Shown in pieces: positions 5,772 through 36,564 of a DNA stretch of 64,000 nt. The notes under the pieces were generated by a model that had not been told where the DNA came from, made no database searches, and saw nothing but the letters and a program-made list of their open reading frames with translations. The stretch is from Blastocatellia bacterium. GTDB lineage: Bacteria > Acidobacteriota > Blastocatellia > RBC074. Location of the stretch: NCBI GenBank assembly GCA_016789725.1, contig JAEUQN010000009.1, positions 1 through 64,000 on the forward strand, given 5' to 3'. Numbering within the stretch: position 1 is the stretch's first letter; each line of letters begins with the position of its first letter. The position numbers and the translations under genes were made by a program.

Positions 5772-5791
5772 GATTTGAAGTTTGAGAGTTG
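5764..5791 (+). repeat. Heptamer array, AGATTTG type, at the mraZ/rsmH junction
   Basis: Four consecutive 7-mers: GAATTTG, AGATTTG, AAGTTTG, AGAGTTG. The mraZ stop TGA (5769-5771) lies inside it and the rsmH ATG follows three bases later. The first two units recur identically at 48879-48892. Confidence 0.75.
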
Positions 5792-5793
5792 CC

Positions 5794-6744: not shown

Positions 6745-6796
6745 CCCTTCACTCAGAACTAAAAATCCCCAATTCCCTTTGCCGGAGGAATTGATC

Positions 6797-7381
6797 ATGA
6801 ACATGCATTTTCGCCCAAAGATCCAGAATGGCCCGGTGGCCAAAAGATCGCGGACTGGATCTACAACTCAATCCATGCCACGTCCTGCTAAGCCTTTTTC
6901 CTTTGCTGCTGTCGCACCAATTTGGTCGGGGGCTTCGGTTGGGGAACTGACTCAGAGTGGATTGGCCGCAATAGGTTTAGATGGACGCCTGCAATCCACG
7001 AAAGTGATGACCAAAGAAAAAGCGACCTCGCGCTCTCGGGTGTTGCTGGGATTGATTGGCTGTGGCGTTTTGCTGACAAGTGGGTTTATGTTCAGTCTAC
7101 GCGATCATTTCACGGCGTATGCTTTTGGACGTGACGAAGTGAAGTTGAAGTCAAAGATTGAGCAAGCCGAGACCGAACAGCAGCACCTTGATGTCAAATT
7201 AAAGCGTGCGGGAAATCCGCAAGCTCTGGAGCAAGCCGCGCGTGAAGCCGGGCTTCTGCCGCTGGGGTTGGAGCGGAAAAAAGTTGTAATCGCATCAACG
7301 AGAGTAACTGCTGCCGAAAAAGCAAAGACTTCTCCATCAGCAAAAAAACCTGCTTCAAAAAGTAAAGCAGCGGAACATTAA
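6797..7381 (+). CDS. ftsL: FtsL-like cell division protein
   Basis: A 194-residue bitopic membrane protein between rsmH and ftsI, where ftsL always sits. The cytoplasmic N-terminus (about 1-77) is long and basic, with SRSRV just before a single membrane helix (about 78-97). A periplasmic heptad-rich coiled coil follows (EVKLKSKIEQAETEQQHLDVKLKRAG, split over about 112-137), then a Lys/Ala/Ser-rich tail. FtsL pairs with FtsB and FtsQ to activate the FtsW-FtsI synthase at the septum. The start is ATG 6797 with GGAGGA seven bases upstream; the frame is open further upstream inside rsmH, but that part is not convincing. Sequence conservation in FtsL is weak, so the call rests on topology and position. 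Confidence 0.8.
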   Translation: MNMHFRPKIQNGPVAKRSRTGSTTQSMPRPAKPFSFAAVAPIWSGASVGELTQSGLAAIGLDGRLQSTKVMTKEKATSRSRVLLGLIGCGVLLTSGFMFSLRDHFTAYAFGRDEVKLKSKIEQAETEQQHLDVKLKRAGNPQALEQAAREAGLLPLGLERKKVVIASTRVTAAEKAKTSPSAKKPASKSKAAEH

Positions 7382-7420
7382 ACGACCTCAGCAGAGACCA
7401 CGAGATAGAAAGCAAATGTA

Positions 7421-9559: not shown

Positions 9560-9592
9560 TTTCTTGTGGTGAACCGTCAGGGATTAGTTGCG

Positions 9593-11143
9593 ATGCAACT
9601 GATCACCGACCACCGACCACCGACCACTATGGTTTTACTGAGTGACATCGCGCGTGAACTAAATGCGCAGGCCAGCGGCGAAGGGCTAAGCGCCTCAGTT
9701 GGTGTCAACGTTGCCGCAGTTCATTCGCCCGATGGTTCTGTCGTCACTCACGATTCGCGCCGCGTTGTGCCGGGGGGCATATTCGTAGCCATCAAGGGCG
9801 CATCAACTGACGGAAACAACTTCGTCAATCAGGCTACGCAACGCGGCGCGCTCGCCATTATTTCCGATAACCCGCGTCCCGCTAATTTTCATGGCGCGTG
9901 GTTACAGGTTGCGGATGCGCGTGCTTCACTGGCGCGCACCGCAGCCCTTGTTTACGGGCATCCTTCACGCTCCTTGAAATTGGTCGGCATCACCGGCACG
10001 AACGGTAAAACGACGACGGCGCATTTGTGCGAATCCATTTTTCGAGCTGCCGGAGCCCTGCCTGCAATGATGGGAACCATCGCGCACCGCATCGGCGATC
10101 ACGAAGAAGTCGCGGCTCATACGACGCCCGAAGCTTCCGAGATTCAAGCGTTCCTGCATCGCGCCGTCGAAGCCAAAGTGAAATATGCCGTGATGGAAGT
10201 GTCATCTATCGCGTTGGATTTGCACCGCGCCGATTGTTTGGAATTTGCGGTCGCGGCATTCACGAATTTGACGCAAGACCATTTGGATTATCACGGCACG
10301 ATGGAAGCGTATGCGGCAGCGAAACGGAAGCTGTTTGAAATGACCAATAGTTACGCAGTCGTCAATATTGATGATGCGTTTGGCGCAACGTTGCCGCAAG
10401 CAACCCGCGCACAGGTACTGAGTTATGCGATTGATCGAGGTGCTGATCTTACCCCTGATAAAACTGATTTTGGCATTGCTGGGCTGTCTTTCACGGCTCG
10501 CACTCCTGTCGGTGCAATCGAAATTCGCTCGCCTCTCGTCGGGCGTCCGCACGCTTACAACATCCTGTGCGCAGTGGGCATCGGCATCGCGCTTGGCATT
10601 GAAACCGAAGCAATCGCGCGTGGCATCAACGCCAGTCACGGCGCGGCTGGCCGATTTGAATGCGCCTCCGACGCGAGCGATGACATCACTGTCGTAGTGG
10701 ATTACGCACACACGCCCGACGCGCTCGTGAACGTTTTGAAAATTGCGCGCGATGCGGCGAAGGCAAGCGGAGGCCGCGTCATTACAGTGTTTGGTTGCGG
10801 TGGCGACAGAGATAAAACCAAACGCCCGTTGATGGGCGAAGACGCTGCAAAGATGAGCGAGGTTGTGATTGCCACGTCTGACAATCCACGCAGCGAGGAC
10901 CCGGAAGCAATTCTGGCCGACATCGAAGTCGGATTGAAACGCGCGAACGGAACTTATGAATTGATCGTGGATCGGCGCACGGCTATTACAAAAGCCATTA
11001 CCGAAGCCACACCAAATGATGTGATTGTGATCGCTGGCAAGGGCCACGAGGATTACCAAATCTTAGCCAGCGGCAAAATTCACTTTGATGACCGTGAAGT
11101 AGCACGGGAAGCACTTGAACTAAGGAGGGGCGCTGCGAAGTAA
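9593..11143 (+). CDS. murE: UDP-MurNAc-tripeptide synthetase, meso-DAP-adding MurE
   Basis: A cytoplasmic Mur ligase that adds the third residue to UDP-MurNAc-L-Ala-D-Glu using ATP. The P-loop [12 protein letters not shown] lies in the first third and the UDP-binding N-domain carries [16 protein letters not shown]. The DNPR motif (in [13 protein letters not shown]) is the marker for meso-diaminopimelate rather than lysine, so Gram-negative-type peptidoglycan is expected. ATG at 9593 is chosen because AGGGA lies nine bases upstream, giving 516 residues. GTG 9566 and ATG 9629 are alternatives. With 9593 the heptamer array at 9602-9629 is translated as a short N-terminal extension; with 9629 it would be leader. 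Confidence 0.93.
9602..9629 (+). repeat. Heptamer array, ACCACCG type, at the ftsI/murE junction
   Basis: Four exact-phase 7-mers: ATCACCG, ACCACCG, ACCACCG, ACCACTA. The last one overlaps a candidate murE ATG at 9629. No inverted partner was seen nearby. Confidence 0.75.
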
Positions 11144-11247
11144 GAGGAATTAGCACGTCATTGGACTCATACGGGGTGAGTCACAGGTTGTTCACACAGA
11201 GGCGATCCAAAACCTGACAATACGTGCTAATTCCTGTTCCTTCGCAG
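11133..11247. repeat. Long inverted repeat between murE and murF
   Basis: Two 26-bp arms, 11133-11158 and 11222-11247, match as reverse complements at 24 of 26 positions around a 63-bp loop. The left arm begins CTGCGAAG inside the last codons of murE and covers its stop. The loop holds a further short pairing (AGGTT with AACCT). It could fold in RNA as one large hairpin inside the mur operon. No U-run follows, so an ordinary terminator is unlikely. Confidence 0.85.
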
Positions 11248-11256
11248 TGAACAAAA

Positions 11257-12687
11257 ATGCAGTTAAGCGAAATCGCAACGCTCTGTGGTGCTACGCATCG
11301 CCTGAATCCGGCGATAGCTGAAACTGTGCCCACAGGCTTTGCGATTGATTCGCGCGCAGTGAAGCCCGGTGAAGTCTTCGTTGCGATTCCCGGCGAGCGC
11401 GTGGACGGGCATCAATTCGTTGCTGAAGTTTTGGACCAAGGTGCGCTGGCGGCATTGGTTGTGCATCATCGCTTGCCGTTTGCGAAAACGTTAGCGCCGT
11501 ACACAGACCGTTTGCTGTTTGTGACCGACACGGCGTGCGCGTTTCAGCAAATGGCGCAGAAGATTTTGACTGCGTGGAATAAGCCAATTGTGGCTGTGAC
11601 TGGCAGCGCAGGCAAAACGACGATGAAGGATTTGACGGCGCATGTGTTGGAAGGTGTTACCTCAAAAGGCTTCAAATCGCTCGGTAATTTGAACACGAGC
11701 TATGGATTACCCCTCACAGTCGGTCGGATGATTTCGGCAGGCGCTGATCCACGAGATTTTGATCTCGCCGTGTTGGAATTCGGCATGAGTTCTTACGGTG
11801 AAATCAAACGCCTGACCGAAATCGCTCCGCCGACGGCTGCCATTGTTGGCAATGTCGGAACGGCGCACATTGAGTTCTTCGGCAATAGTGACGGCATCGC
11901 TGAAGCCAAAGCCGAAATCGTGGACGGCCTGCAACCAGGCGGCTTGGCGATTCTGAACGCGGATGATCCCCGCGTGAGCAAGATGCGTGAGCGCCGCAGC
12001 GATATTTCGATTTTGACCTTTGGCATTGACGCCGACGCTGATGTTCGAGCCGTCAGCATCAACAATGACACCCTGGGCGCGACAAGCTTTGAGTTGCGCA
12101 CGCCGCGTGGTGACGTTTCGGTAAATTTGCCATTACTAGGTAAGCACAACGTGTACAACGCGCTGGCCGCTGCCGCCGCCGGTCATCATTTCGGAATGAG
12201 CGCCAGACAGATCGCGCGGCAGCTTAAAACCGCCGCGCCGTCAAAGATGCGCGGCGAACTCATCAAATTCGCTAACGGTGTGACCGTGATTGATGATTCG
12301 TACAACTCAAATCCACCGGCTTTGATTCAGGCTGTGCAAGCGATGGCGAACGCGAAAGGTTTCGTGCGTCGCATCGTTGTCGCTGGCGAAATGCTGGAAC
12401 TGGGTGAGCAGGGCGCGAGCCTACATCGCAGTTGCGGACAACAGATTGCAGACGCCGGGATTCAGCGTGTGATCGGTGTGCGCGGTTTGTCCAGGTATTT
12501 AGTCGCAGGCGCAATGGACGCGGGTGTGCGCGACTCCACGTTTTGCGAAACACCGGAACAAGCTGCCGAACAATTGCTCGGTGAATTACAGGCGGGCGAT
12601 TTGGTGCTGGTCAAAGGCTCGCGTGGTGTGCGCACTGAGCGTGTGGTCGAGCGACTGAAAGCGGCATTAGGAGGAAATGAGCAATGA
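11257..12687 (+). CDS. murF: UDP-MurNAc-tripeptide:D-Ala-D-Ala ligase MurF
   Basis: A 476-residue Mur ligase that attaches D-Ala-D-Ala to the UDP-MurNAc-tripeptide, completing the cytoplasmic pentapeptide. The N-domain carries [19 protein letters not shown] (about residues 28-46). The P-loop [12 protein letters not shown] is near 112-123 and [11 protein letters not shown] near 200. DDSYNSNP, a MurF signature in the ATP-binding to C-terminal region, is near 346. It follows murE after the large inverted repeat and overlaps the first possible mraY start. No clear ribosome site precedes ATG 11257, so translation may depend on coupling or on the preceding RNA structure. Confidence 0.95.
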
Positions 12688-12706
12688 GGGATCATTGCGC
12701 GGCATA

Positions 12707-13825
12707 ATGCTCTACTACTTATTCTACAAACTTTTGTTCGAGCAGTATGCACATGCCTACCCGGTGCTGAAGGCTTTCAATGTTTTCCAGTACGTCACAT
12801 TTCGCACGGCGTACGCGACGATCTCAGCGTTCTTAATCACCCTGGTGGTGGGTCCGTGGATGATTCGCAAATTGCGCGAATTCAAATTCGGGCAGGAAAT
12901 TCGAGAAGAAGGCCCGGCACATCACCAGGCCAAGAAAGGCACGCCCACGATGGGCGGCGTGCTTGTCATCGGTTCGGTCGTCGTCTCTGCGCTGTTATGG
13001 GCGGATTTGAAAAATCGGTATTTGTGGATTGCGCTGGTTGGCACCTTAGGCTTTTCGCTGGTTGGCTTTTTGGATGATTACATCAAGATCAAAAAGAAAC
13101 GAAGCCTGGGCTTAACCGGGCGACAAAAGCTGGTCGGGCAATTTGGAACAGCACTGATCGTGGGTCTGATGCTTAAGCAATTGACAAATTATAGCTGGGT
13201 GCTGAGTGTTCCGTTTTTCAAGGAATTTCAGCCTGTTTTGCCGTTCATTGTCTATCTGGGCTTCATCATGCTGTTCACTGTGTTTTGCTCGAATGCTGTG
13301 AATTTGACAGATGGATTGGATGGTCTGGCGATTAGTGTGACGGTGGTGGCGGCATCGGCCTTGACTGCATTGGTCTACGTCACTGGCCACGCAAAGTTTG
13401 CGGAATATCTGGATTTGGTGCGCAGCACGGGAACTGGTGAATTGACCATCTCGGAATTAACGATTGTCGGAGGTGCGTTGATCGGGGCGAGCCTGGGGTT
13501 TCTCTGGTTCAATGCACCGCCCGCCGAAGTTTTCATGGGGGATGTTGGTGCGCTTGGCATCGGCGGAGCCTTGGCAACAATCGCCGTCATCATCAAACAG
13601 GAAATCGTGCTCACTATCATTGGCGGCGTATTTATGATTGAGGCGTTATCCGTGATGATTCAGGTAGCGTCGTTCAAGTTGACGAAGAAACGGGTTTTCA
13701 AGATGTCGCCGCTGCATCATCACTTTGAATTATCGGGCTGGAAAGAATCGAAGATCGTCTTTCGCTTTTTGATCGCGTCGTTGCTCTTTGCATTGCTGGC
13801 GCTTTCGACGTTGAAGCTGAGGTAA
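12707..13825 (+). CDS. mraY: Phospho-N-acetylmuramoyl-pentapeptide transferase MraY
   Basis: An integral membrane enzyme of about ten helices that moves phospho-MurNAc-pentapeptide from UDP to undecaprenyl phosphate, forming lipid I. The catalytic signatures are visible: [11 protein letters not shown] with the Asp pair (about 123-133), [13 protein letters not shown] (about 200-212), and the cytoplasmic histidine motif [11 protein letters not shown] near the end. ATG 12707 ([10 protein letters not shown]) matches the family's usual start and gives 372 residues. An in-frame ATG at 12677 overlaps the end of murF and would add ten residues; AGGAGG lies too close to it for ideal spacing. Its stop overlaps the murD start. 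Confidence 0.95.
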
Positions 13826-15174
13826 TGGAACTCGCAGGCAAAAAAACTCTGGTTGTTGGCCTTGGTAAAAGTGGCATCGCTGCTGCCGGGTTTTTGCGCG
13901 CACGCGGGGCACACGTGATCGCAAACGATGCGCAACCTGAAGAGAAAATTGCTGCCGCCGCGCAATTGAAAGAGCAGGGAATTGAACTGGTTGCTGGATC
14001 GCACCCCATCTCGCTTTTTGAAAATGTAGATTTGATTGTTGCCAGTCCCGGCGTGCCGCTTGCACTTGAATGCTTCCAGAGAGCCAAAACCGCAGGCGTA
14101 CCGATCATCAGCGAAATCGAATTGGCCGCGCGTTTCCTGCGGGGGCGATTGGTGGGCATCACCGGCTCCAACGGCAAGACGACAACCACGACCTTGATTG
14201 GTAAAGTGCTGAAGAACGCGGGCTTGCCCGCGCAAGTCGGCGGCAACATCGGCACACCCCTGATTTCATTGGTCGAAACGTCAAGTGACGATGGATTCAC
14301 CGTAATTGAACTCAGCAGTTTTCAATTGGAAGCGGTTGAATCGTTGCACTTGTTCGCTGCCGTCTTGCTGAACATCACACCGGATCATTTGGATCGTTAC
14401 GATTCGATGGATGCTTACGCCGCCGCCAAAGCCAACATCTTTCGCAATCAGACATCCGAAGATTTGGCCGTGCTGAATGCGGATGACACGCGCGTCGCAG
14501 CGATGACAACCAACGCGCACAAGACGTTTTTTAGCTGCAAACGTGAATTGGAAGAGGGCCTGTTCTTGCGCGGCGATGAAGTGGTTGCACGGGCGAATGG
14601 CGTTGAGAGAACTCTGATTTCACGCCCTGAAATTGGGATTCGCGGCGCGCACAATTTGGAAAACGTGATGGCCACGCTGGCGGTTGGTTTGGCCTGTGGC
14701 GCAGGACCGGATTCGATGCGTCACACGATTCATGAATTCAAAGGCGTCGAGCATCGTTTGGAATTTGTGGTCGAAATCAACGGCGTGAAGTTTTACAACG
14801 ACTCGAAGGCCACGAATGTAGATTCGACGATCAAGGCTCTCGAAGCTTTTGACAGCGGCGTGATCGTGATTTTAGGTGGCAAGGATAAGGGCGGGGATTA
14901 TGCGCCCCTCGTGCCGCTGATCCAATCGCGCTGCGAACACGTGATTTTGATTGGCGCTGCGGCGAACAAAATTGCTACGGCCTTGGAAAACACGAAGCCG
15001 TTGCAGCGCGCAACAACAATGCCCGATGCCGTCCGGCTTGGGTACGAATTGGCGAGAGCTGGCGATGTTGTTTTGCTCGCTCCCGCGTGTGCGAGCTTCG
15101 ATATGTTCGATAATTACGAACATCGCGGGCGAGTTTTCAAGGACGCTGTGCGGCAGTTGAGAATTGAACATTGA
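13825..15174 (+). CDS. murD: UDP-MurNAc-L-alanine:D-glutamate ligase MurD
   Basis: A 449-residue Mur ligase that adds D-glutamate to UDP-MurNAc-L-Ala. It opens with a Rossmann-type [15 protein letters not shown] (about residues 10-24). The ATP P-loop [15 protein letters not shown] is near 112-126, [10 protein letters not shown] near 185, and the C-terminal [11 protein letters not shown] near 347. The ATG shares a base with the mraY stop (TAATG), so the two are translationally coupled. The last codons and the stop fall inside an ATTGAGA-type heptamer array, so the C-terminal residues LRIEH are repeat-derived. Confidence 0.95.
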
Positions 15175-15216
15175 GAACCAGTAATGTGAAGCAAATGAGA
15201 ATTGCGAGTTGAGTAA
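15157..15216 (+). repeat. Heptamer arrays, TTGAGAA type, at the murD/ftsW junction
   Basis: The first array is TTGAGAA, TTGAACA, TTGAGAA (15157-15177) and contains the murD stop codon. A second looser array, AATGAGA, ATTGCGA, GTTGAGT, lies at 15195-15215 in the same orientation. The ftsW ATG follows ten bases later. Confidence 0.65.
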
Positions 15217-15225
15217 CACAAACGT

Positions 15226-16362
15226 ATGGCAGCGAAAACAACGAACAAATTGTTTGATGCAATCGAAGAAGCACAGTGGGACATGCTGCTGGCGTGTTCG
15301 GCTGTGGGCCTGGCGTTGTTTGGCTTGGTGATGGTTTACAGCGCATCAGGGGCCATCACAACCGACAAGTTTGGCGGCTCATTTCACTTTGTCTTTCGGC
15401 AAGCCGCGTGGGCCGTCGCAGGCATTGTGGCAATGCTGGTTCTGATGCGGATTGATTATCAACGCTATGCGTCACCGATGTTGATTTTACTATTGCTGGT
15501 CGTAAGTGTGGCGTTGTTGATTGCAGTGTTTTTCTTCAATCCGCGCAACGGCGCACGACGATGGATTGCGATAGGGCCGCTTTCCGGGCAACCGTCTGAA
15601 TTAGCTAAACTCGCATTCATCGCCTTTATGGCGTACTTCCTGACGCGACGAAACGAAGAGGGGGAACAAGGCAGCTTTCAGTCCACATTTTTGCCCGCTG
15701 TGGTTGTGGCCGGAATTCTGATGGCGTTGATCGTGAAAGAGCCTGACCTCGGCACCGCATTAATGATCGGCATTATTTTTGTTGTGATGATGTGGATTGG
15801 GCGCGTGCCAACGTGGCATTTGTTGTCATTAGCATTGCCTGTGATTCCAATCGGTTGGTACTTGCTCTGGCACGTGGGCTTTCGTCAAAAACGACTGCTG
15901 GCATTCTTGAATCCTGAATCCGATCCGCAAGGTGCGGGCTATCAGATTTTGCAATCACTCTATGCGGTTGGTTCGGGTGGATTGTCCGGCGCAGGCTTGG
16001 GCAGTGGCAAACAAAAGCTCGGTTATTTGCCCGAAGCGCGCACCGATTTCATCTTCGCCGTGATTGGCGAAGAGCTGGGTTTTATGGGCACCGTTTTAGT
16101 TGTGGTCGTTTTCGGTTTGTTGATGTGGCGTTGCCTCAAAGCTAGTTTTCGTGCGCCCGATCAGTTTGGACAATTGCTTGGCATCGGCCTAACAACGATG
16201 CTGATTGCACAGGCGTTTTTCAATATGAGCGTGGTGCTGAGCCTGGTGCCGACGAAAGGAATTCCGCTGCCGTTCGTGAGCGCAGGCGGATCGTCATTGC
16301 TGTTTGCATTAGCGGCAGTGGGCGTCTTGCTCAATATCTCAGAGCAAGCGAGGCAGGAATGA
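15226..16362 (+). CDS. ftsW: Peptidoglycan glycosyltransferase FtsW (SEDS family)
   Basis: A 378-residue polytopic SEDS protein with about ten membrane helices that polymerises lipid II at the septum with its partner FtsI. Visible family segments are VYSASGA in the first helix region, [21 protein letters not shown] (around residues 105-125), VKEPDLGTA (about 166-174), where the conserved acidic residue lies, and [13 protein letters not shown] near the C-terminus. It lies between murD and murG and overlaps murG by four bases. It is preceded by a heptamer array rather than a strong ribosome site. Confidence 0.94.
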
Positions 16363-17447
16363 GTAGCTCCGTCATCGGCTCTGTCATTATTGCGGGCGGT
16401 GGCACTGGCGGCCACATTTTTCCGGGCATTGCGATTGCGCAGGAGTTCAAGCGGCGCAATCCGAATTGCGAGATTGTTTTTGTTGGGACAGCGCGCGGAT
16501 TGGAAACCAAAATCGTCCCGCGCGAAGGCTTCAAGCTGGAGCTGATTGAAATTGCGGCATTGAAAGGTGTGAGCGTCATCAAGCGCATCAAGTCGCTGCT
16601 GATGTTGCCCAAAAGTTTTTTAGCCGTTCGTTCTTTGATTCAGAAATATAAACCTGACGTTGTGATCGGCGTGGGTGGTTATGCTTCGGGACCAATGCTG
16701 TTGATTGCCTCGCTAATGAATGTGCCAACGATGGTCGCAGAACAAAATGCGTTACCAGGCTTTACGAATCGTGTGTTGGCGCGGTTCGTCAAAGCGGCTG
16801 CCGTCTCGTTTGCCGAAGCGCAATCGTTCTTTCGTGGCAAGGCCGAAATCACCGGCAATCCAGTGCGCACGGAGTTTTTCAATGTACCCGCGCGAACACC
16901 GAGCAACGTCACAAACGTGTTGATTACCGGTGGCAGTCAGGGCGCGCGTGCTGTGAATGAAGCGTTCATCGCGGCTTTGCCGTTACTTGAAGCATATAAA
17001 GACAAACTGGCAATTGTGCATCAGACCGGCGAACTGGATTTTGAAAAGGTCAAAGCGGCTTATGCGAAATCGTCGTTGCAAGCAGAAGTAAAGCAGTTCA
17101 TTGAAAAGATTGTGGATGAATTTGCCAAAGCGGATTTGGTGATTTCACGCGCCGGCGCAACGACGGTGGCCGAACTCGCCGCAGCGAGTCGCCCTGCCGT
17201 GATGGTTCCGCTTCCGTGGGCGGCGGACGATCATCAACGCAAGAACGCTGAAGCGGTCGAACGAGCCGGAGCGGGCCGCATGATTTTGCAATCTGAATTG
17301 AGCGGCGAACGATTAGCAAGCGAATTGTTAGCTTTGATAAATGCCCCACAAACATTAGCTGCAATGAGTGCGGCGAGCAAAACGCTTGCACATCCTGATG
17401 CGGCGGCGAGAGTGGTGAATATCGCAGAAAGTATCGTGAAAAGATGA
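16359..17447 (+). CDS. murG: UDP-GlcNAc:undecaprenyl-PP-MurNAc-pentapeptide GlcNAc transferase MurG
   Basis: A 362-residue GT-B glycosyltransferase on the inner face of the membrane that converts lipid I to lipid II. The N-terminal glycine-rich loop [20 protein letters not shown] is at about residues 9-28. [12 protein letters not shown] (about 99-110), [13 protein letters not shown] (about 188-200) and the donor-site region [13 protein letters not shown] (about 263-275) follow. ATG 16359 overlaps the ftsW stop (ATGA), indicating coupling. The gene is followed by an imperfect inverted repeat before murC. Confidence 0.95.
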
Positions 17448-17526
17448 ACCACAGAGCACAGCGGACACGGAGACAAAATAGCGATGACGATTTGTGATTT
17501 CTCTGCGCTTTGTGTTCTCTGTGGTT
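17447..17526. repeat. Inverted repeat with ACCACAGAG ends, murG/murC junction
   Basis: The outer ends are AACCACAGAG (17447-17457) and CTCTGTGGTT (17517-17526). Inside, related 7-bp units such as CACAGAG, CACAGCG and GACACGG run in one strand and their degenerate complements in the other. The element fills almost the whole gap between the murG stop and the murC ATG. Confidence 0.75.
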
Positions 17527-17539
17527 AAGAATTGATTTT

Positions 17540-18907
17540 ATGTTTTCCAAGTTTCAGCACATTCATTTCGTTGGCATCGGTGGCATTGGTATGAGCGGTA
17601 TCGCGGAGGTGCTGCTTAATCTTGGCTATCGAGTGTCCGGCTCGGATGTGAAACGCACCGCCATTACAGATCGGTTGGAGAAGCTCGGCGGCATTATTTG
17701 TGAAGGCCACGCGGCGACCAATATTGACGGGGCGAATGTCATCGTTACTTCAACTGCCGTGCGTTCGGATAATCCCGAAGTTGTTGAAGCTGTGCGCAAA
17801 CAAATTCCCGTGATTCCGCGTGCGGAAATGCTGGCCGAATTGATGCGCTTGAAATACGGCATTGCCATCGCCGGTTCGCACGGCAAGACGACGACGACTT
17901 CAATGACGGCATTCGTGCTGACGCAAGGTGGTTTGGACCCCACAGTTGTTGTCGGCGGTCGTCTGAATGCGTGGGGCAGCAATGCGAAGCTCGGCAAAGG
18001 CGATTTCATTCTGGTCGAAGCGGACGAAAGCGATAAGAGCTTTTTGAAACTTTCACCGACGATTGCGGTGGTCACGAATATAGACCGCGAGCATCTGGAC
18101 TTCTACAAAGACCTCGATGAAATCAAGGATCACTTTATTCAGTTCGTGAATAAAGTCCCGTTTTACGGCGCGGTTATTATTTGTCTGGATGATCCGAACG
18201 TGCAGGCGATCATTCCAAATATTACGCGCCGCATGATTACTTACGGAATGACAGCGCAAGCAGACATCTCGGCTTCGCAGGTCGAAGTCATGCACGACCG
18301 CTTTGGCTCGGCCTTCAATGTCAAATACCGGGGCCAGGATTTAGGTCGTGTGCGATTGAACGTTCCGGGTATGCACAACGTCAGCAACGCGCTGGCTGCG
18401 GTCTCGATTGGCCTTGATTTGGAACTCTCGTTTGAAATCATCGCTTCGGCGCTCGAAACTTTTCGTGGAGCAGAACGGCGATTTCAAATCAAAGGTGAAC
18501 ACCCCGATAACATTTTGGTCATTGACGATTATGGACATCATCCGACGGAAATTCGGGCTACGTTGGCGGCGGCGAAATCAAGCGGACGGCGGCTCGTCAC
18601 GCTCTTCCAACCGCATCGCTACACGCGGACTGCGGCCTTACGCGAAGACTTCGCGCGAAGTTTCTATGATGCAGACGTGGTGCTGCTGACGGATATTTAC
18701 GCGGCGAGCGAAGAGCCCATAGAAGGCATTACCGCGCAAGCCTTAGCCGAAGACATCGAACGCTTCGGCCATCGCAACGTGCGTTACATCGGCAGCGTTG
18801 AGCAAGGCGCAAAAGCGATTGCGGACGTCGTGCAGCCGAATGATTTGGTGCTGACGCTTGGCGCGGGCAGTGTGTGGAAGGCAGGCGAGGAGTTTTTAGC
18901 AACGTAA
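17540..18907 (+). CDS. murC: UDP-N-acetylmuramate:L-alanine ligase MurC
   Basis: A 455-residue Mur ligase that adds the first amino acid, L-alanine, to UDP-MurNAc. It starts with the UDP-binding [17 protein letters not shown] (about residues 8-24). The P-loop [12 protein letters not shown] is near 108-119, VEADESD near 166, and [10 protein letters not shown], a MurC signature, near 334. ATG 17540 fits the family start; in-frame upstream codons lie in the inverted repeat. In many bacteria murB and ddl lie between murC and ftsQ, but here ftsQ follows after seven bases, so those functions must be elsewhere. Confidence 0.95.
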
Positions 18908-18914
18908 CTTTTTT

Positions 18915-20009
18915 ATGAGCGTACCCCCCAAGAACGAAAACCAGAGTTATAGCAATATGGCACAGCGTCATCATCGTCGCGCCGCAGGAGGAACATCTGT
19001 TGTCGCCGATGTGAAGACCCCTGCCGGGCGGCGACGTGGTTTGCCGGAAGACTATCAGCGAGAAGCGGAAGAACAAGATTATCAAGCTCGCTATGAACGT
19101 GAGTTACAAGAACGCCGTCAACAACGCGCGGCTGAGCGACGCGGAACACGACAGCGCGAAATTCTATCTGGGCGCGTCGAAAAACGCCCTCGTACTCAAC
19201 CCGTCAGTGAGGCGACGAAGCGATGGGTTTACATTACGCTAATCTCGCTCGTTGCCCTGATTGTATTGGTTGGGAGCGTGATGGCGTACAGTAAAGTTAC
19301 GGGTTCGCAGTTGTTCGTTCTAAAAGAAATTGAATTGCAGGGAGCCAAGCGGGCTGCACCGAAAGAGTTGTTGCGAGTCCTGGAGCCGTACAAGTCGAAG
19401 AACCTTTGGCAACTGGATTTGCAAATAATTCGTGAGGCCATCGAAAAAAATCCCTGGGTGTTTGAAGCGGACGTGTCGCGTGTGTTGCCTGATTCTTTAC
19501 GTGTGACGGTTCACGAGCGCGAACCAGTGGCTCCCTGGCACTCTCCGCAAGGTGCGATTGTGTGGGTAGATCGTGAAGCGCGCAGTTTAGGCGAGCTTGA
19601 TTTCAATCAAGTTCAGAATGTCCCGCCAATTATTAATGGATTGGAAGAAGGTACGGACGAGGATGTGAAGGCCTTGAATCAGCGCCGCATGGAAGTCTAT
19701 CAACTTTTACTCAATGAACTCGATCAGAATGGTGCGAAGCTCTCAGAGCAAATTGACGAAGTGGATTTGAAAGAAGTGCAAGCAGTCAGATTCCATTTGC
19801 TGAAACGTAATGTGAGTGTGATGGTTGGTGACACCGAGTATCGATCCCGCTTGGAGATCGCGCTCAAAGTTCTGGATGCCATTGAGCGCAAAGACCTCTC
19901 GGCGCTCGGCTTCTATAAGATTGCAGATGCCCAAAGGGTCATCGAAAGTCGCATCTCCTATCTCAACGTCATTCGCCCGGAACAAGTCATTGTCGGGCTG
20001 GCGGAATAA
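18915..20009 (+). CDS. ftsQ: Cell division protein FtsQ
   Basis: A 364-residue bitopic divisome protein. The cytoplasmic N-terminus is unusually long (about 100 residues), rich in Arg, Glu and Gln and probably disordered. One membrane helix (about 104-124) is followed by the POTRA domain: FVLKEIELQGAKRAAPKELL, then NPWVFEADVSRVLPDSLRVTVHERE (about 178-200), whose xxVxxxxPxxLxxxxxER form is the FtsQ/DivIB hallmark. The FtsQ beta domain completes the protein. It recruits FtsL/FtsB and regulates FtsW-FtsI. ATG 18915 is used; ATG 18957 is an alternative that would remove 14 residues. Confidence 0.92.
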   Translation: MSVPPKNENQSYSNMAQRHHRRAAGGTSVVADVKTPAGRRRGLPEDYQREAEEQDYQARYERELQERRQQRAAERRGTRQREILSGRVEKRPRTQPVSEATKRWVYITLISLVALIVLVGSVMAYSKVTGSQLFVLKEIELQGAKRAAPKELLRVLEPYKSKNLWQLDLQIIREAIEKNPWVFEADVSRVLPDSLRVTVHEREPVAPWHSPQGAIVWVDREARSLGELDFNQVQNVPPIINGLEEGTDEDVKALNQRRMEVYQLLLNELDQNGAKLSEQIDEVDLKEVQAVRFHLLKRNVSVMVGDTEYRSRLEIALKVLDAIERKDLSALGFYKIADAQRVIESRISYLNVIRPEQVIVGLAE

Positions 20010-20039
20010 TAACTCCTCACCGAAAGAGGGTACTGAACT

Positions 20040-21296
20040 ATGGCAAGAAAATACTCAAATCACATTGTTGGTCTTGATATTGGCACGACCAATGTGCGCG
20101 CCGTTTTTGCTGAGCCGTTGGATGGCAAATTAGAAGTCGTCGGCATTGGCGAAGCAGAATCGAAAGGCTTGCGCAAAGGCGTGATTGTTAATCCTGATGC
20201 TGCGGTGGATTCCATCAAGCGTGCGATTGAATTGGCGGAGCGGACTTCGGGGTTACATGCAGAAGAAGCATATGTTGCATTGGGTGGATCGCACATTAAA
20301 GGCCACAATAGCCAAGGCGTGATTGCTGTTTCCTCGCGGCATCGTGAAATCACCCGTGAAGATGTGCAGCGCGTGATTGATGGCGCATGCGCGGTATCCA
20401 TCCCTTCAGGCCGAGAAATCGCAGACGTATTGCCGCAGGAATATACCGTTGACGATCAAGATGGCATTGGGGACCCGCTCGGTATGCTTGGCTCTCGCCT
20501 GGCTGTTTCGGTGCGTATTATTACCAGTCCAATTGCCGCCAAACAAAACATCGTAACCAGTGTCAACCGCGCTGGATTGATGGTCGCTGATATGTTGCTT
20601 GCGCCCTTAGCTGCTGCCGAAGCGATATTAAATGACGAGGATCGTGAATTCGGTACAGCCTTGGTTGACATCGGTGGAGAAACGACTAATCTGGCGATCT
20701 ATCAACGCGGTTCCATCTGGCATACTGCGGTGTTCCCGATAGGTGGAAATCACTTCACGAATGACATTGCATTTGGATTACGTACTCCCATTCCAGAAGC
20801 TGAGCGCATCAAGCGAGAATTCGGTTGCACATATCGGCAATTGTTGGATCAAAACAGCGCCGCTGAAATGATTGAGGTGCCAAGCGTTGGAGGACGTGAG
20901 CCTCGATTGCTTTCCCGCGACATCTTGTGCGGGATTCTGGAACCTCGCGCTGAGGAATTACTCACGCAAGTGCAGGATGAGATTCGCGCCTCCGGGTTTG
21001 ATCGCCAATTATCCAGCGGAATCATTTTGACAGGTGGCGGCTCTTTGTTAACCGGTCTGGTGGAAGTTGCTGAGCAGATCTTTGATGCGCCTGTCCGATG
21101 CAGTGGGGCAAATGATGTCGGTAGTCCTTTCGATGAGATTACAACGCCTGGCTATGCCACCGCTGTTGGCTTGGCCATTTATGGTTCGCGGCGTGGCGGG
21201 CAATTTCATCAGGCAAAATTGGGACGAAGCCAAGCCGCCAGCGTATCAATGGCGGCTAAAGTCAAAAGCATGTTTGGCAGTTTTTTGAACCTTTAA
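20040..21296 (+). CDS. ftsA: Cell division protein FtsA
   Basis: A 418-residue actin-like ATPase that tethers FtsZ filaments to the membrane. Phosphate loop 1 [12 protein letters not shown] is at about residues 11-22, and the SHS2 (1C) domain lies around 85-165. Phosphate loop 2 [14 protein letters not shown] is near 207-220 and the adenosine motif [13 protein letters not shown] near 328-340. The C-terminal [14 protein letters not shown] is the expected amphipathic membrane-targeting helix. GAAAGAGGG lies upstream of ATG 20040. It is separated from ftsZ by a 450-bp gap with its own likely promoter. Confidence 0.95.
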
Positions 21297-21746
21297 GAAC
21301 ACTCTTTTGGAAGGGGACCACAGGGCTTTTTTGAAGTATTCATACGCTAAAATCATTTTTTTAAGCGAATGATTAAAAAAAGTTGCAAAGAAGGGGTGAG
21401 ATTGCTTGCGCAGCACTTGGCAAATCAAGATGTTGTGCTAAAATCCGCAATCGCATACAAGATGACGCATCAATTTCAAATTCGACAATTGCTCGCGTAT
21501 CAGTGCGATTGGCCTGTTTACAGCCACTCTTTCTCACGAAGTAGTACTTCAAATTGAAAGCCTCATTATAAGAATTCTTTCCGCAGCGAGTGCTTACGGT
21601 CAGGTTATGAAGAGCAATTTCACCAAACAGGAATCCTGTTCTAAATATGTCGTAAGTGTTCAGTTCACCGAGTCGGAGAGAGGTAACAAACAAAATAATC
21701 AGGTGAGGCATGTTTTCCAACTTGCTATACAAGCAGGAGGCGCAGG
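21297..21746 (+). other. ftsA-ftsZ intergenic region
   Basis: A 450-base gap with no convincing gene. It is AT-rich, especially around 21345-21390 with runs of A and T. It contains a probable promoter (separate entry), which would leave ftsZ with an untranslated leader of about 295 bases. An extra promoter here would allow ftsZ to be expressed more strongly than the upstream wall genes. An antisense reading frame in this region was examined and rejected. Confidence 0.5.
21417..21444 (+). promoter_or_regulatory. Candidate ftsZ promoter
   Basis: TTGGCA (21417-21422) and TAAAAT (21439-21444) are separated by 16 bp. Both boxes match sigma70 consensus at five of six positions. The site lies in the ftsA-ftsZ gap, about 300 bp before the ftsZ ATG. 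Confidence 0.5.
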
Positions 21747-22883
21747 ATGGCAATAGATGATCGCCAAGAACTAGACCTCAGATTTGTTGAAGATCCTCCC
21801 ACTTCAGGAGCACGAATCAAAGTGGTCGGTGTGGGCGGTGGAGGCGGCAACGCTGTCAACCACATGATAGATGCTCATATTGAGGGCATTGATTTTTTAG
21901 TGGCGAACACAGACGCACAAGCTTTGAAACGTTCCCTTGCGCCGATCAAATTACAGATCGGCTCACGGTTAACGAAAGGGCTTGGTGCTGGAGCCAACCC
22001 GGAAATCGGGCGCGATGCTGCGCTTGAAGACACAGATAAAATCCTTGAAGCACTCGAAGGCGCAGACATGGTTTTCGTGACAGTAGGCATGGGTGGCGGC
22101 ACTGGCACTGGAGCTGCACCAATTATTGCCTCGCTGGCCGCCGAGTTAGGCGCGCTCACCGTTGCGGTCGTTACGAAGCCTTTTCCTTTTGAGGGGCGTC
22201 GTCGTATGCATCAGGCTGATCTGGGCTTACAGGAACTGCGTTCGGTAGTGGATACGCTGATTACAATTCCCAACGAACGGCTTAAACAAACTGTGGATCG
22301 TAACATGACCCTGGCGGATTCTTTCCGTATGGCAGATGATGTGTTGCGACAGGCAGTGCAAGGCATTTCGGATTTGATTACTGTCCCTGGCTTTATCAAT
22401 GTGGATTTTGCAGACGTCAAATCTATTATGAGGGGGATGGGAATTGCCCTCATGGGAACTGGACACGCGCTGGGAGACAATCGTGCCCAAGAGGCAACTC
22501 AGCGAGCGATTTCCAGCCCGCTGCTGGAAGAGGCTACCATCGAAGGTGCCAAAGGTGTCTTAGTTAATATCACAGGCGGAGCCGACTTGACACTGTTTGA
22601 AGTGGATGAGGCTATGCACATTATCCATGATGCGGCAGACCCCGATGCCAACATCATTTTCGGAACTGTGACGGATGAACGATTACAAAATGAAATGAAG
22701 ATTACTGTGATTGCTACAGGGTTCGAGAAAGCGAAAGCTGCCGAAAATCTTCATAACTTCCCGGTGCGGCAAAATTCGACATCATCCACCTCACCGAGAG
22801 TTGTAGGAACCACGAACCCTGCTCCCTCTATGCGTCAGGAAGACTACGAAACTCCGGCGTATCTCCGCAAAAAGGCTGACTAA
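21747..22883 (+). CDS. ftsZ: Cell division GTPase FtsZ
   Basis: A 378-residue tubulin homologue that forms the Z ring. [15 protein letters not shown] is at about residues 26-40. The tubulin signature GGGTGTG is at 116-122 and the T7-loop region with [11 protein letters not shown] is near 218-228. After the core, a short linker (about 330-360) ends in [12 protein letters not shown], the C-terminal conserved peptide that binds FtsA. The ribosome site AGGAGG lies a few bases before ATG 21747. It is the last gene of the division cluster, followed by a strong hairpin. Confidence 0.97.
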
Positions 22884-31664: not shown

Positions 31665-34148
31665 TTATCCCTCTTGGTTGGGTGGAATAATGCGCGTCAA
31701 TTCAACGCGCCAACCTGACTCAAGCTTGGTCAGTCGGACGAAATCCACAAGGCTGCGCAGGACATCCAAACGCCAGAGGCGATCCGGGTCCTCGACCACA
31801 ATGGTCCCTGTTGTTTCTGCGAATCCAGTTGCAACATTTGAGACCGTGATCGTCATCTTCTCTTTGTCTAAATGGTAATGCTGATAAATCTTGCCTTCTG
31901 GCGTTTCCTCAGCGGCGGCTAAACTCAGACAGGCTTCAATCAAGGCGGTCTTAATTTGGTTCACTGCCTCTGGAGCAAAACCGGCGCTGCGCGCCAACCG
32001 TTCGGCAACTCTCGCCGCAATGATTTCCTTGTCATCATTAATTGGAATCGCCATCTCAAGGTCGTTGACGGAGGTTATTTCCGGCTGAATTTGAACCGAT
32101 GCGTGGGGCGCAGTTTCTTCAATGACTGTATTTTCTGGAGCTTCAATGATGGATACCTCTGCTCCACCCAAAACCTCAATGGCGGCATCTTTAGTCTTGT
32201 CCTCTGGAAGTTCTGCTAACATTTGTGCAGGGGCCGCAGACGGCGGTACAAGCGAAGTTTCTGCATCGTCAACATTCGACAGTTCTTGCGCCTTAGTCTT
32301 TTTTTCCTCAGTTTCAAGAATCCGGGTCAACAATTCCAATTGCAGACTATCCGAAGCGGCAAAGCCACGTTCGAGCAACGCGATAGTGCCGTCGGGAGTG
32401 AAACCCATTTTGCTGATGGCCCAACGAATAAGTTTGGGAATAGGTTTTCCTTGCGCCTGGTTGGCAGTCAGCGCCGCTTGAATTTCGTTGAGTTGGTGAT
32501 CCAGCGATTGAACGACTTCGGCTGTGATTGCCGATGGAGAGTCAGCGACTGCCAACAACCAAATGATCTCGTGTTCCTGATCGTAAATGCCTTCCTCAAA
32601 GCCAAAGGCCAGCAAGTAACTCCAACTCGCGGGCAGGCTCAGATTCATAAAAAGATGACCTTCGACGACGTGAACAACCTGAGGCAATTGGATGCGTTCG
32701 ATTTCTGCGGCCAGCCCCGCCAGCATAATTTCGTAGGTAGCGTGACCATACCGAATAACAAACTCATCGTGAGCGAATAAGGAATGGGCAATGCTTTGTC
32801 CATCGAAGCGCCGCAGTAACGCTTCGATTTGTGTGTGTAAGGTGCGGCGCGCGCTGAGGGTCAACATCTGCGGCACCGATTTGATGCGGCGGCGCAAGAG
32901 GTCAAGCTTTACTTCTTCCAGCGACGCCCCTTCAAAACGCCGATGCGTAGCGGCAATCCAATCACAAAATACAGGGTCTTCAGAAGGCAGGATATGACCA
33001 TCCAAGAGTGTAATTAGCTCTTGACGATGCAACTCCGCCAATAAAGCGGACACATCAATCCGCCCGGCTAGACGCGATTGGATAAGTTCGACGGGCGCGC
33101 GTGACGCCATTGCTTCGGCACAGATATAAACGATTTCGATAGCCGCAAGCTCGCCGGATTGCCCCCGCATGGCATCCCCGGCCAATTGTCGCAGGAGCCG
33201 CGAAAAGTAATGCGCGATGCGACCTTGCAATAGTTCGGCAACATACAGCCGCTCAAAATCGGCTCCTTTGTCAAACCACATCTTGCGTTCGCTTGAAGCG
33301 GCAGTCATGGCCCGCAAGTAAAATAGATTGCTGTCAAGTTGATGCACCGCCAGCCTTCCGATTTCAGAATCGAAAGCCACATTGTCCTGTTCGCACCATT
33401 GCTTGACGAGGTTTTGCAGTGAAAACAAATCAGGCGTGGAAAAATGCAAAAGTTTGACATTGCCGATAATGCCTTCTTCTGCCGCCAGTTGATCGAGCAA
33501 TGCGCGCTGTTGTCCAGTCAAAATAAAAGACACCAAATGCGGTTGCTGTAAAACCTCGCCCAGGAGGTTCGCAATTTCTTCATCCGTCACAATGCGATCC
33601 AGCCATTGTGCCTCGTCTAGTAAGACAGTGATGTGATAGGGGCTGCGCGACGCCAATCGTTGGGGCAATCCCAACGTATAGCGCACCAGTGAGCGTTTAT
33701 CTGATCCTTGCGCCCGTGCCTCATAGCTATCCAGAAGCTCTTTAATCGCCGCATATTCATTGGCCGGGGCCAGGGCCAGCAACTCCTGCTCCGTCATTTC
33801 ATAGCGCGGCACCAGTGTCGCATCGTGGTTTACAAATGCGAGATATTGACGCAAAAGCGTTAGCAAAAAATCTCTGGCGAATTTATCCGGCGACAACCGA
33901 TCACGCCGCAGCGTGAAATAAATTGGTAACGTTCGCCCTTGTTCATTGAAGAGCCGGTCATAGGTCAGGCGTAGCAGCTCTGTTTTACCGGACCTGGGGC
34001 GACCGATAATCAGGACTGCGCGGGCGTTTTTCAAAACCGCTGCCTGATACACTTCATCTAATGCGGACGCCGTGCGGACCAAGATTTCGTCATCGGCAAG
34101 CTGGCTCAAGATAGATTGAGATGGTGAAGAATCTGAGGAAAACGACAT
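31665..34148 (-). CDS. P-loop NTPase fused to a degenerate RsbW-like domain
   Basis: An 827-residue cytoplasmic protein. An AAA/STAND-like NTPase module has Walker A GRPRSGKT (49-56), Walker B VLLDEAQWLD (175-184) and a sensor-like SFILTGQQR. A helical middle region follows, then an acidic, low-complexity linker (about 600-690). The last 130 residues resemble the HATPase fold of RsbW anti-sigma kinases: a helix with AVNQIKTALIEACLSLAAAE, strands MTITVSNVATGF and a final GWRVELTRI. The ATP-binding N box (EAxxNAxxH), G1 and G2 motifs are replaced, so this domain is probably not a kinase. Function is unknown. It is followed upstream by a diguanylate cyclase on the same strand. Confidence 0.7.
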   Translation of the reverse strand: MSFSSDSSPSQSILSQLADDEILVRTASALDEVYQAAVLKNARAVLIIGRPRSGKTELLRLTYDRLFNEQGRTLPIYFTLRRDRLSPDKFARDFLLTLLRQYLAFVNHDATLVPRYEMTEQELLALAPANEYAAIKELLDSYEARAQGSDKRSLVRYTLGLPQRLASRSPYHITVLLDEAQWLDRIVTDEEIANLLGEVLQQPHLVSFILTGQQRALLDQLAAEEGIIGNVKLLHFSTPDLFSLQNLVKQWCEQDNVAFDSEIGRLAVHQLDSNLFYLRAMTAASSERKMWFDKGADFERLYVAELLQGRIAHYFSRLLRQLAGDAMRGQSGELAAIEIVYICAEAMASRAPVELIQSRLAGRIDVSALLAELHRQELITLLDGHILPSEDPVFCDWIAATHRRFEGASLEEVKLDLLRRRIKSVPQMLTLSARRTLHTQIEALLRRFDGQSIAHSLFAHDEFVIRYGHATYEIMLAGLAAEIERIQLPQVVHVVEGHLFMNLSLPASWSYLLAFGFEEGIYDQEHEIIWLLAVADSPSAITAEVVQSLDHQLNEIQAALTANQAQGKPIPKLIRWAISKMGFTPDGTIALLERGFAASDSLQLELLTRILETEEKKTKAQELSNVDDAETSLVPPSAAPAQMLAELPEDKTKDAAIEVLGGAEVSIIEAPENTVIEETAPHASVQIQPEITSVNDLEMAIPINDDKEIIAARVAERLARSAGFAPEAVNQIKTALIEACLSLAAAEETPEGKIYQHYHLDKEKMTITVSNVATGFAETTGTIVVEDPDRLWRLDVLRSLVDFVRLTKLESGWRVELTRIIPPNQEG

Positions 34149-34333: not shown

Positions 34334-36466
34334 TTATGCAAGGCCCGGAACCAGCTCCGTATTGTACACGACAACGCAATTTTTGCCGCGTTTTTTTGCA
34401 GCATAGAGCGCCTGGTCGGCGGCACGGATCACTTGATGGCGATTTTGTAGGGTTTTGCTAAGGCTGGAAACTCCGATGCTGACAGTAACCGGATGACGTG
34501 AGTTTTCGCCGGCAAAGTGTTGTTCGACTGCTTTGCGCAGGCGTTCGGCGAGGATCATGGCCGAAGTGACATCCGTTTCCGGCAGGACAACAATGAACTC
34601 TTCGCCGCCATAACGAGCCGCGACATCGAAATTACGCAGTGAGCGCCGAATGCAGTGCGCAGTTTCGCGTAAGACTTCATCGCCTGCCTGATGTCCGAAT
34701 GTGTCATTGAGCAATTTGAAGCTGTCAATGTCCATCATGACGAATGACAGCGGGAATTGATACCGCTTCGAGCGTTCGATCTCTTGTGAAAACCGTTCCT
34801 CAAGATAGCGGCGATTGAGCAATCCTGTCAGCGGATCAGTAATCGCCAGAAGTTGGAAGCGTTGTGCTTTTTCGTGGAGGTCAATTTTTTCCAGGGCTGC
34901 CGCTGCATAAGGCGCAAAGAGCTTGAGCCAATCCAAATCACTGGCAGTGAAACTTTCATTTCCACCGCGATCTGTCACATTGATGACACCTAATCGCTTG
35001 CCGCCACTAAGCAGTGGGAAGCTAATGAATGAATGCGAATGCGCATTACCGTGCGTGCGATCTGCCACCCAGGTTGGCTCATGCAAATCGCGCACAAGCA
35101 GTGGCTCACCTCGTTCCAACACGACACCCGCAATGCCCTCGCCAATTTTAGGGCCATTGGCAATCTCCGGTCGAAAGCCGCTGCCTAAACCACTGGACGC
35201 TTTGCAAATCAATTTCCCGGCATCTTCGTTGTAGGTGAGCAGCGAAACTCGATCTGCGCCCAATGCCGTCACAACTTTTTCGACAATGGCAGAGTAGGTT
35301 TCCGGCGCATTTGCGCGGGTTGCCAGCAGATGCGAGAAGTCCTGCCATTGTGCCAGCGAGCGGGTTTGATCGTTGACCGCATCGCGCAGCCGTGCCAGTT
35401 CCAAGGGCACGATCAGGCTCTGTCCCAGTCGGGCGATTTCCTGTTTGCTTGCTTTGTCCAATTCCGTTTCCAGGATCAACAAAATGCCCGCTAATTCCTC
35501 GCCAATAAACAGCGGGAACGCCTCCGCTTGGGAGCAATCAATGTTCAGGCCTAGCTGAATTTGTTCTTCTGCCGTCAGTAAAATGGAACTCTCTTCACTC
35601 GCGCGCATCTGTAAGCGGTTGAGTAATGGGGAATCAAGATTGAGTTGGAGTTCGATTAATTGGTCGCGCAACTCGCCACCTGCCGCGCAGGCGGCCATCC
35701 GTCTAGCTGTTCGCATCAACAGTACGCCGGAAGAAATATGAAACTGCGAACCAATCAAATGTAGTGCTTCGCTGCATCCTTGTTCGAAAGAACCCTTGAA
35801 AAAGGTTTCCAGTTGTTCAGCAGAAAGGATTGGCGCAAGTGATGATGACACGGGAAGGCGAATTTCTGTGGCGAGGCTCGGTTCAGTAAAATTGGCCGAA
35901 GCTTCTTCACCTGCGGTACTGAAATCATGGCTCAGAATTTCGCTCGCTGTCGTCAGGATCATTTGCTGATGACGGGCAAATTCTTCGGCTTCAGTGAACT
36001 TAATGTTGCTAAATAATTTGGGATCAGGTCGTTTTCCTCCCACTGTTTCGCGTTGCAGAAATTCGCGGTACTCGCTGACTGAAAGGAAGGTGCGTCCCCC
36101 AATCAAAACCAGCGATGGAGTTTCGCCGGGAACGTGTAACGGGGCTGCAAAGCAATGCAGATTGGCATCGCACCGATACGTAATCATGCGCCCGGCGGCA
36201 ATCGCGCGCTGACGAGCCTGGCCGCAAAATTCCGCGCACATTTTTGCTTTGACGGGGTTACTTAGGAAGGTTTGGCAAATGCTGGTTTCGTTGGCAACGT
36301 GTCCTTGCAAGTCATTGTTGGCATCCACCATCATCAGCGCCAGATTTGAGCTGGCGGCAAGAGTTTGTTGTGCGGCCAACCAATGAGGAGGCGTTTCGGA
36401 AGATGGCGTCTGGGCGCGCGCGTCCAGCGCGATCTGAGACTCAGAGATGTTTACTACGTCCACCAT
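34334..36466 (-). CDS. Diguanylate cyclase with PocR-like and GAF sensor domains
   Basis: A 710-residue signalling protein that would make cyclic di-GMP. The N-terminal region (about 40-165) has spaced cysteines in ETSICQTFLSN, MCAEFCGQ and RCDANLHCF, as in PocR sensory domains. A middle region leads to a GAF domain (about 365-520) with RVSLLTYNEDAG and IGEGIAGVVL. The GGDEF domain carries DPLTGLLNRRYLEERF and GGEEF (620-624). RNFD lies exactly five residues before GGEEF, matching the RxxD inhibitory site, so product feedback is expected. No membrane helix is seen. ATG 36466 is used. It shares strand with the NTPase/RsbW-like gene 185 bp downstream. Confidence 0.88.
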   Translation of the reverse strand: MVDVVNISESQIALDARAQTPSSETPPHWLAAQQTLAASSNLALMMVDANNDLQGHVANETSICQTFLSNPVKAKMCAEFCGQARQRAIAAGRMITYRCDANLHCFAAPLHVPGETPSLVLIGGRTFLSVSEYREFLQRETVGGKRPDPKLFSNIKFTEAEEFARHQQMILTTASEILSHDFSTAGEEASANFTEPSLATEIRLPVSSSLAPILSAEQLETFFKGSFEQGCSEALHLIGSQFHISSGVLLMRTARRMAACAAGGELRDQLIELQLNLDSPLLNRLQMRASEESSILLTAEEQIQLGLNIDCSQAEAFPLFIGEELAGILLILETELDKASKQEIARLGQSLIVPLELARLRDAVNDQTRSLAQWQDFSHLLATRANAPETYSAIVEKVVTALGADRVSLLTYNEDAGKLICKASSGLGSGFRPEIANGPKIGEGIAGVVLERGEPLLVRDLHEPTWVADRTHGNAHSHSFISFPLLSGGKRLGVINVTDRGGNESFTASDLDWLKLFAPYAAAALEKIDLHEKAQRFQLLAITDPLTGLLNRRYLEERFSQEIERSKRYQFPLSFVMMDIDSFKLLNDTFGHQAGDEVLRETAHCIRRSLRNFDVAARYGGEEFIVVLPETDVTSAMILAERLRKAVEQHFAGENSRHPVTVSIGVSSLSKTLQNRHQVIRAADQALYAAKKRGKNCVVVYNTELVPGLA

Positions 36467-36564
36467 CGTGTTGCCCAAAGCTTTCTGGCGGTGTTATCGA
36501 ATTCACCATCGCAAATGCAAGCGGTGGCGCTAGAGAAAGGAATAAGCCAGCGCCACCGCGCGAC

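Follow-up and report, generated by a model that had tools for sequence, protein, structure and literature searches.

A STAND NTPase–RsbW fusion that has lost its ATP-site motifs is a member of a protein family conserved in Blastocatellia

Introduction

What can a protein do that joins a STAND-type NTPase to a domain resembling an anti-sigma kinase, when the motifs with which such a kinase binds ATP have disappeared? This question is raised by a gene located in a stretch of 64,000 nucleotides of a Blastocatellia genome (hereafter the window). An initial annotation of this DNA proposed that the fusion, depending on NTP but not phosphorylating its target, could sequester a sigma factor or an anti-anti-sigma protein. 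The partner switches known so far chiefly control sigma factors; few have been tied to c-di-GMP. We report here that the fusion is not unique to the window but is a member of a conserved family, whose gene neighbourhood suggests another function.

Results

Domain organisation of the fusion protein

The gene is an open reading frame of the minus strand that starts with ATG, contains no internal stop and encodes 827 amino acids (Table 1). The N-terminal part is a STAND/AAA-type NTPase, as first supposed, both by its intact Walker A and Walker B motifs and by its likeness to solved STAND/AAA+ ATPases. Pfam detected AAA_22 at residues 41–216 (E 1.7e-9, over the gathering cut-off), and a Foldseek comparison of an AlphaFold2 model (24 aligned sequences, mean pLDDT 80) with the PDB retrieved the archaeal ATPases 2qen and 2fna, as well as ORC/Cdc6, the NLR protein RPP1 and CED-4. 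The middle domain produced weak Foldseek matches to MspJI, EndoMS and AF1548, and its catalytic (D/E)XK motif is incomplete, the K being missing from a sequence that reads ADSP versus DSK or NSK in relatives. The acidic linker described initially is real, with 12 D/E versus 2 K/R over 61 residues, and the model falls below a pLDDT of 50 both there and in the ATP-lid region. This linker is private to the window copy, in which it spans 87 residues (positions 611–697 of the protein) versus a median of 16 in relatives.

Promoter and terminator scans around the gene gave signals at chance level only, and no plasmid matches were found. A search for defence genes with PADLOC gave one weak match only (E 0.0019).

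Table 1. Position of the fusion gene, its domains and motifs, and the neighbouring cyclase gene in the window.
Feature	Coordinates	Strand	Residues	Remarks
PocR-GAF-GGDEF diguanylate cyclase (upstream gene)	34334..36478	-		GGEEF and RxxD intact
STAND NTPase–RsbW fusion	31665..34148	-	827 aa	STAND-type NTPase, middle domain, acidic linker, RsbW-fold HATPase
NTPase domain	33279..34079	-	about 24–290	Pfam AAA_22; Foldseek 2qen, 2fna
Walker A	33981..34004	-	49–56	GRPRSGKT, intact
Walker B	33612..33629	-	174–179	TVLLDE, intact
Middle domain	32253..32936	-	405–632	residues 460–600 weakly similar to PD-(D/E)XK nucleases
Acidic disordered linker	32082..32252	-	633–689	pLDDT <50; length comparison
RsbW-fold HATPase domain	31686..32081	-	690–821	
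N-box position	31911..31937	-	738–746	EACLSLAAA; Glu738 kept; Asn742, Glu745, His746 lost
G1 position	31821..31841	-	770–776	SNVATGF; Gly773 lost
G2 position	31758..31787	-	788–797	PDRLWRLDVL; Gly791 and Gly793 lost

The RsbW-type domain and its lost ATP site

Pfam matched HATPase_c_2 at residues 711–778 with an E value of 4e-4 and 20.8 bits, under the cut-off of 27.4. Homologues of the same architecture score 64–75 bits, so that the weak score reflects decay of the window copy and not chance. In the AlphaFold2 model, the domain resembles B. subtilis RsbW in its complexes with RsbV (6m36 and 6m37; Foldseek probability 1.00, target-normalised TM 0.84–0.93) and thus adopts the GHKL/HATPase_c_2 fold. 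Structure prediction, which could have returned a fold of another kind, therefore upheld the anti-sigma-kinase-like assignment.

The loss of the three ATP-binding motifs, also noticed in the first reading of the sequence, was confirmed and results from real substitutions. The N box of the window copy reads EACLSLAAAE versus EACINAAEHS in relatives and departs from the EAxxNAxxH pattern; G1 reads SNVATGF versus SNKGK or SSRG; G2 reads PDRLWRLDV versus RRGWGLKLI and lacks the GxG. No other reading frame restores the N box, G1 or G2, and a frameshift is therefore not the cause. The N box (EAx[IL]NxxE[HY]) is kept in all 83 readable relatives and the RGxG of G2 in 82 out of 82, the window (DRLWRL at G2) being the sole exception in both cases. 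The DxGxG of G1, on the other hand, is lacking in the window and in every readable relative (0/83), where Asn or Ser replaces the adenine-binding Asp. The family as a whole thus lacks the G1 Asp, which makes kinase activity uncertain even in the relatives, and the window copy alone has lost the N box and G2 as well. The window copy may thus be called kinase-dead as regards its motifs, but this condition is an accident of one lineage and not a design of the fusion.

The window copy keeps 20 of the 37 highly conserved positions of the C-terminal domain, versus 33 of 42 in the rest of the protein. Within the domain, at the 95% conservation level, three of ten positions are kept in the ATP site versus 13 of 17 elsewhere. 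Substitutions are thus only modestly concentrated in the ATP site (Fisher p 0.04 at 95% conservation and 0.19 at 90%), and the RsbW-type domain has loosened throughout.

Distribution of the fusion

A search of 162 genomes of the class gave matches in 118; 11 of the weaker ones were checked and corresponded to ten stand-alone RsbW-like proteins and one NTPase alone. In the family to which the window belongs, ten further genomes yielded neither the fusion nor an orthologue of the cyclase. Scanning genome contigs with a single-sequence pattern recovered no relatives; an alignment-based scan added many, bringing the set to 85 non-redundant fusions, window included. Most of the fusions come from Blastocatellia, and a few outliers from other phyla. 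Records of these outliers are labelled Deltaproteobacteria, Sumerlaeota or Rokubacteria, labels that may be misassigned because the records are metagenome bins. Across 396 genomes of the phylum, the full-length fusions among the matches listed were confined to the class, the others being RsbW-like domains alone. The architecture had been presented as lacking any characterised protein; no open-access paper on the family was found, but with 84 other non-redundant homologues it is far from singular.

Of 81 sequences, 14 carry Walker A (GK[ST]), among them the window copy, family f9 and the outliers. When a tree was built from the N-terminal region, the sequences without this motif fell into a single clade (68 of 82 rows), which implies one loss. 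The window appears in this tree as a lone long branch, of uncertain placement, near the f9 group and the outliers. Members of the Pyrinomonadaceae-type clade have lost the Walker A lysine of the NTPase and have intact RsbW motifs, which makes them a mirror image of the window copy.

A four-gene operon in the relatives

The gene order recurrent around the relatives is PocR-GAF-GGDEF cyclase, NTPase–RsbW fusion, STAS protein and GAF-HD-GYP phosphodiesterase. Among the 67 loci in which the contig continues downstream of the fusion over at least 3 kb (window included), the cyclase was found upstream in 64, the STAS gene downstream in 48 and the HD-GYP gene downstream in 48. Carriers of the operon include a named strain, Pyrinomonas methylaliphatogenes K22.

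The partner STAS proteins match SpoIIAA (E 2.8e-10), and the family resembles both SpoIIAA and RsbV. They harbour an invariant Ser at the position of the SpoIIAA phosphosite (NS-I-G versus MDS-S-G), which we take to be Ser58 of SpoIIAA. A strong STAS match, 137–181 bits for the cognate proteins, was obtained in 38 of 40 relatives checked, even where the gene is unlinked. The two exceptions are G041 (73% complete) and G090 (94% complete), the latter having an intact N box, yet no STAS match at 1e-10. No phosphatase for the STAS protein was found within the operon. Ten conserved neighbour families were profiled around the operons; they include an oligopeptide ABC transporter, PknB, FHA and PP2C, and none is a sigma factor. 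The conserved partners of the fusion are thus a diguanylate cyclase, a STAS protein and an HD-GYP phosphodiesterase, which speaks against the proposed sequestration of a sigma factor.

Several loci show peculiarities. At L038–L040, L044 and L046, a group of PknB, PP2C and FHA genes is close and convergent to the operon. L091, L099, L116, L114, L131 and L156 carry the operon, or its last three genes at a contig end, with an intact Walker A; these bins are labelled Deltaproteobacteria, Sumerlaeota, Rokubacteria or unassigned, and may reflect either transfer or misbinning. In L043 (5678–10285) and L112, an open reading frame of 1536 amino acids joins PocR-GAF to the fusion, owing to a sequencing error or to a true frame change; because the GGDEF part lies in another frame, it was not taken as evidence of a gene fusion.

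The window locus lacks two partners

The window cyclase matches the first gene of the relatives' operon in both position and domains. Furthermore, the position is conserved, as folD-coaE lie ahead of the operon in L040 and ahead of the cyclase and the fusion in the window. Co-transcription of the two window genes is not certain, as 185 bp separate them. A cognate STAS or HD-GYP gene was not found at the window locus or elsewhere in the assembly (88.6% complete, 635 contigs) at cognate scores. The top STAS match reached 37 bits versus 137–181 for the relatives' cognate proteins, and the top HD-GYP match 210 bits over the HD domain versus 670 for a true HD-GYP protein. The 37-bit STAS gene sits in an ordinary RsbV-RsbW-GAF/SpoIIE operon on contig C93, and was rejected as a partner of the fusion on account of its low score and of its own canonical RsbW and SpoIIE neighbours.

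As the window lineage has lost both the N box and the cognate STAS, and nearly all relatives checked keep both, loss of the kinase site accompanies loss of the presumed substrate, an association that is based on this one lineage. The idea that the fusion holds a STAS partner in an NTP-dependent way suits the family, but the window genome has no cognate STAS gene. Elsewhere in the window, positions 5782–22883 carry an ordinary cluster of cell-wall and division genes (mraW to ftsZ, identified by eye), as is usual in bacteria.

Discussion

Taken from the sequences and the predicted structure, the most probable interpretation is that the window gene is a degenerate member of the conserved STAND NTPase–RsbW family, that the operon of this family forms a switch acting on c-di-GMP, and that the window retains a stripped-down copy left with the cyclase. 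In the relatives, the fusion would most likely act, gated by NTP, on the STAS protein of the adjacent gene, as its kinase, its binding partner or both. The phosphorylation or binding state of the STAS protein would in turn adjust the cyclase (PocR-GAF-GGDEF) and the phosphodiesterase (GAF-HD-GYP) encoded on either side, and thereby local c-di-GMP. The window lineage has lost the STAS and HD-GYP genes, its RsbW domain has a decayed ATP site, and a long acidic linker has arisen between the domains. What is left may be described as an NTPase with a switch domain, probably unable to phosphorylate and still beside the cyclase. Its present role would most likely be NTP-dependent control or scaffolding of this neighbouring cyclase, unless the domain is vestigial.

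A more speculative proposal, to which we give distinctly less credit, is that the family represents a partner switch of a kind not yet described: a STAND NTPase serving as sensor would directly gate the RsbW-type domain fused to it, and the balance between c-di-GMP synthesis and breakdown would be set by the STAS protein, the window variant being phosphorylation-free and acting directly on the cyclase. To judge from the operon, a c-di-GMP switch so far unstudied may be common in Blastocatellia. Two natural knock-outs are available in this family: the Pyrinomonadaceae clade has no Walker A lysine and keeps the kinase-type motifs, and the window copy shows the reverse, with its partners lost.

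Other explanations were weighed. The C-terminal domain could be a mere vestige, drifting now that its substrate is gone, with only the NTPase part still of importance. The lower retention of conserved positions in the C-terminal part (20/37 versus 33/42 in the N-terminal part), the long private linker and the missing STAS and HD-GYP partners agree with this explanation. A pure relic would nevertheless hardly be expected to have a frame open up to the ancestral C-terminus, to keep Glu738 and several core positions, and to be still modelled in the RsbW fold, even though the alignment guides the model; we regard a vestige as rather unlikely. Less likely again is that the domain binds, independently of any kinase activity, a different partner of STAS or RsbW type, supplied by one of the ordinary Rsb modules in the genome. 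Further STAS and RsbW-like genes do exist there, for instance in the C93 operon, with STAS proteins also encoded on C376 and C233, and kinase-inactive RsbW homologues can bind, as reported for RsbW1 and RsbW3 of M. smegmatis (PMC7693655), but the C93 STAS gene has a canonical RsbW of its own beside it, and cross-talk has left no sign in the sequence.

Sequestration of a sigma factor or of an anti-anti-sigma protein, NTP-dependent and without phosphorylation, draws on the fold shared with RsbW and SpoIIAB, which bind sigma factors and STAS proteins. This original proposal has become improbable, as the profiled set of conserved neighbour families includes no sigma factor, the window genome has no cognate STAS gene and the relatives have intact phosphorylation motifs. 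Finally, although the assembly is fragmented (635 contigs), we give almost no credence to an assembly or base-calling error behind the motif loss: no alternative frame restores the motifs, and the losses occur at three separate sites of an intact open reading frame and coincide with the absent partner genes.

The family that we favour as a c-di-GMP switch shares features with several known systems. With RsbW/SpoIIAB (6m36, 1l0o) it shares the C-terminal fold, the N box and G2 being kept in relatives, and an adjacent gene in relatives encoding a STAS protein with Ser at the phosphosite position. It differs from them by the fusion to a STAND NTPase, the absence of the G1 Asp and a conserved neighbourhood without a sigma factor; the window copy additionally lacks the N box and G2. 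The NTPase fold and Walker motifs are common to the STAND-type archaeal ATPases (2qen, 2fna; Pfam ATPase_2), to which the fusion adds a weakly nuclease-like middle domain and then the RsbW domain. To our knowledge, none of the kinase-inactive mycobacterial proteins RsbW1, RsbW3 and Rv1364c is fused to a STAND NTPase. RsbW1 and RsbW3 of M. smegmatis have RsbW-type domains without kinase activity, as the window copy probably has, but act in SigF control (PMC7693655). Rv1364c of M. tuberculosis is a multidomain protein whose RsbW-type domain is likewise without kinase activity (PMC7693655 and its reference list). In Pseudomonas aeruginosa, the STAS protein HsbA, when phosphorylated, binds the cyclase HsbD, a partner switch that would provide a precedent for the step from STAS protein to cyclase (PMC5085249). 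In that system, a response regulator, HsbR, serves as kinase/phosphatase (PMC5085249), whereas in the relatives an NTPase–RsbW fusion is encoded in one operon with the cyclase and the HD-GYP phosphodiesterase.

No description of the fusion or of the operon was found in open-access papers, and most subscription papers fall outside this coverage; the operon thus appears undescribed in the open-access literature, in which kinase-inactive RsbW-like proteins are already known. A close parallel within the same class is an RsbW-STAS-GAF-SpoIIE module of the f2 genomes. Its STAS protein shares the NSIG signature with that of the operon, and its first GAF region resembles that of the operon HD-GYP gene; the module differs from the operon by a stand-alone RsbW whose G1 is canonical (DFGQGF) and by a SpoIIE phosphatase where the operon has HD-GYP. 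The classic Rsb triple of these genomes (L198–L201) may be the source of the parts of the switch.
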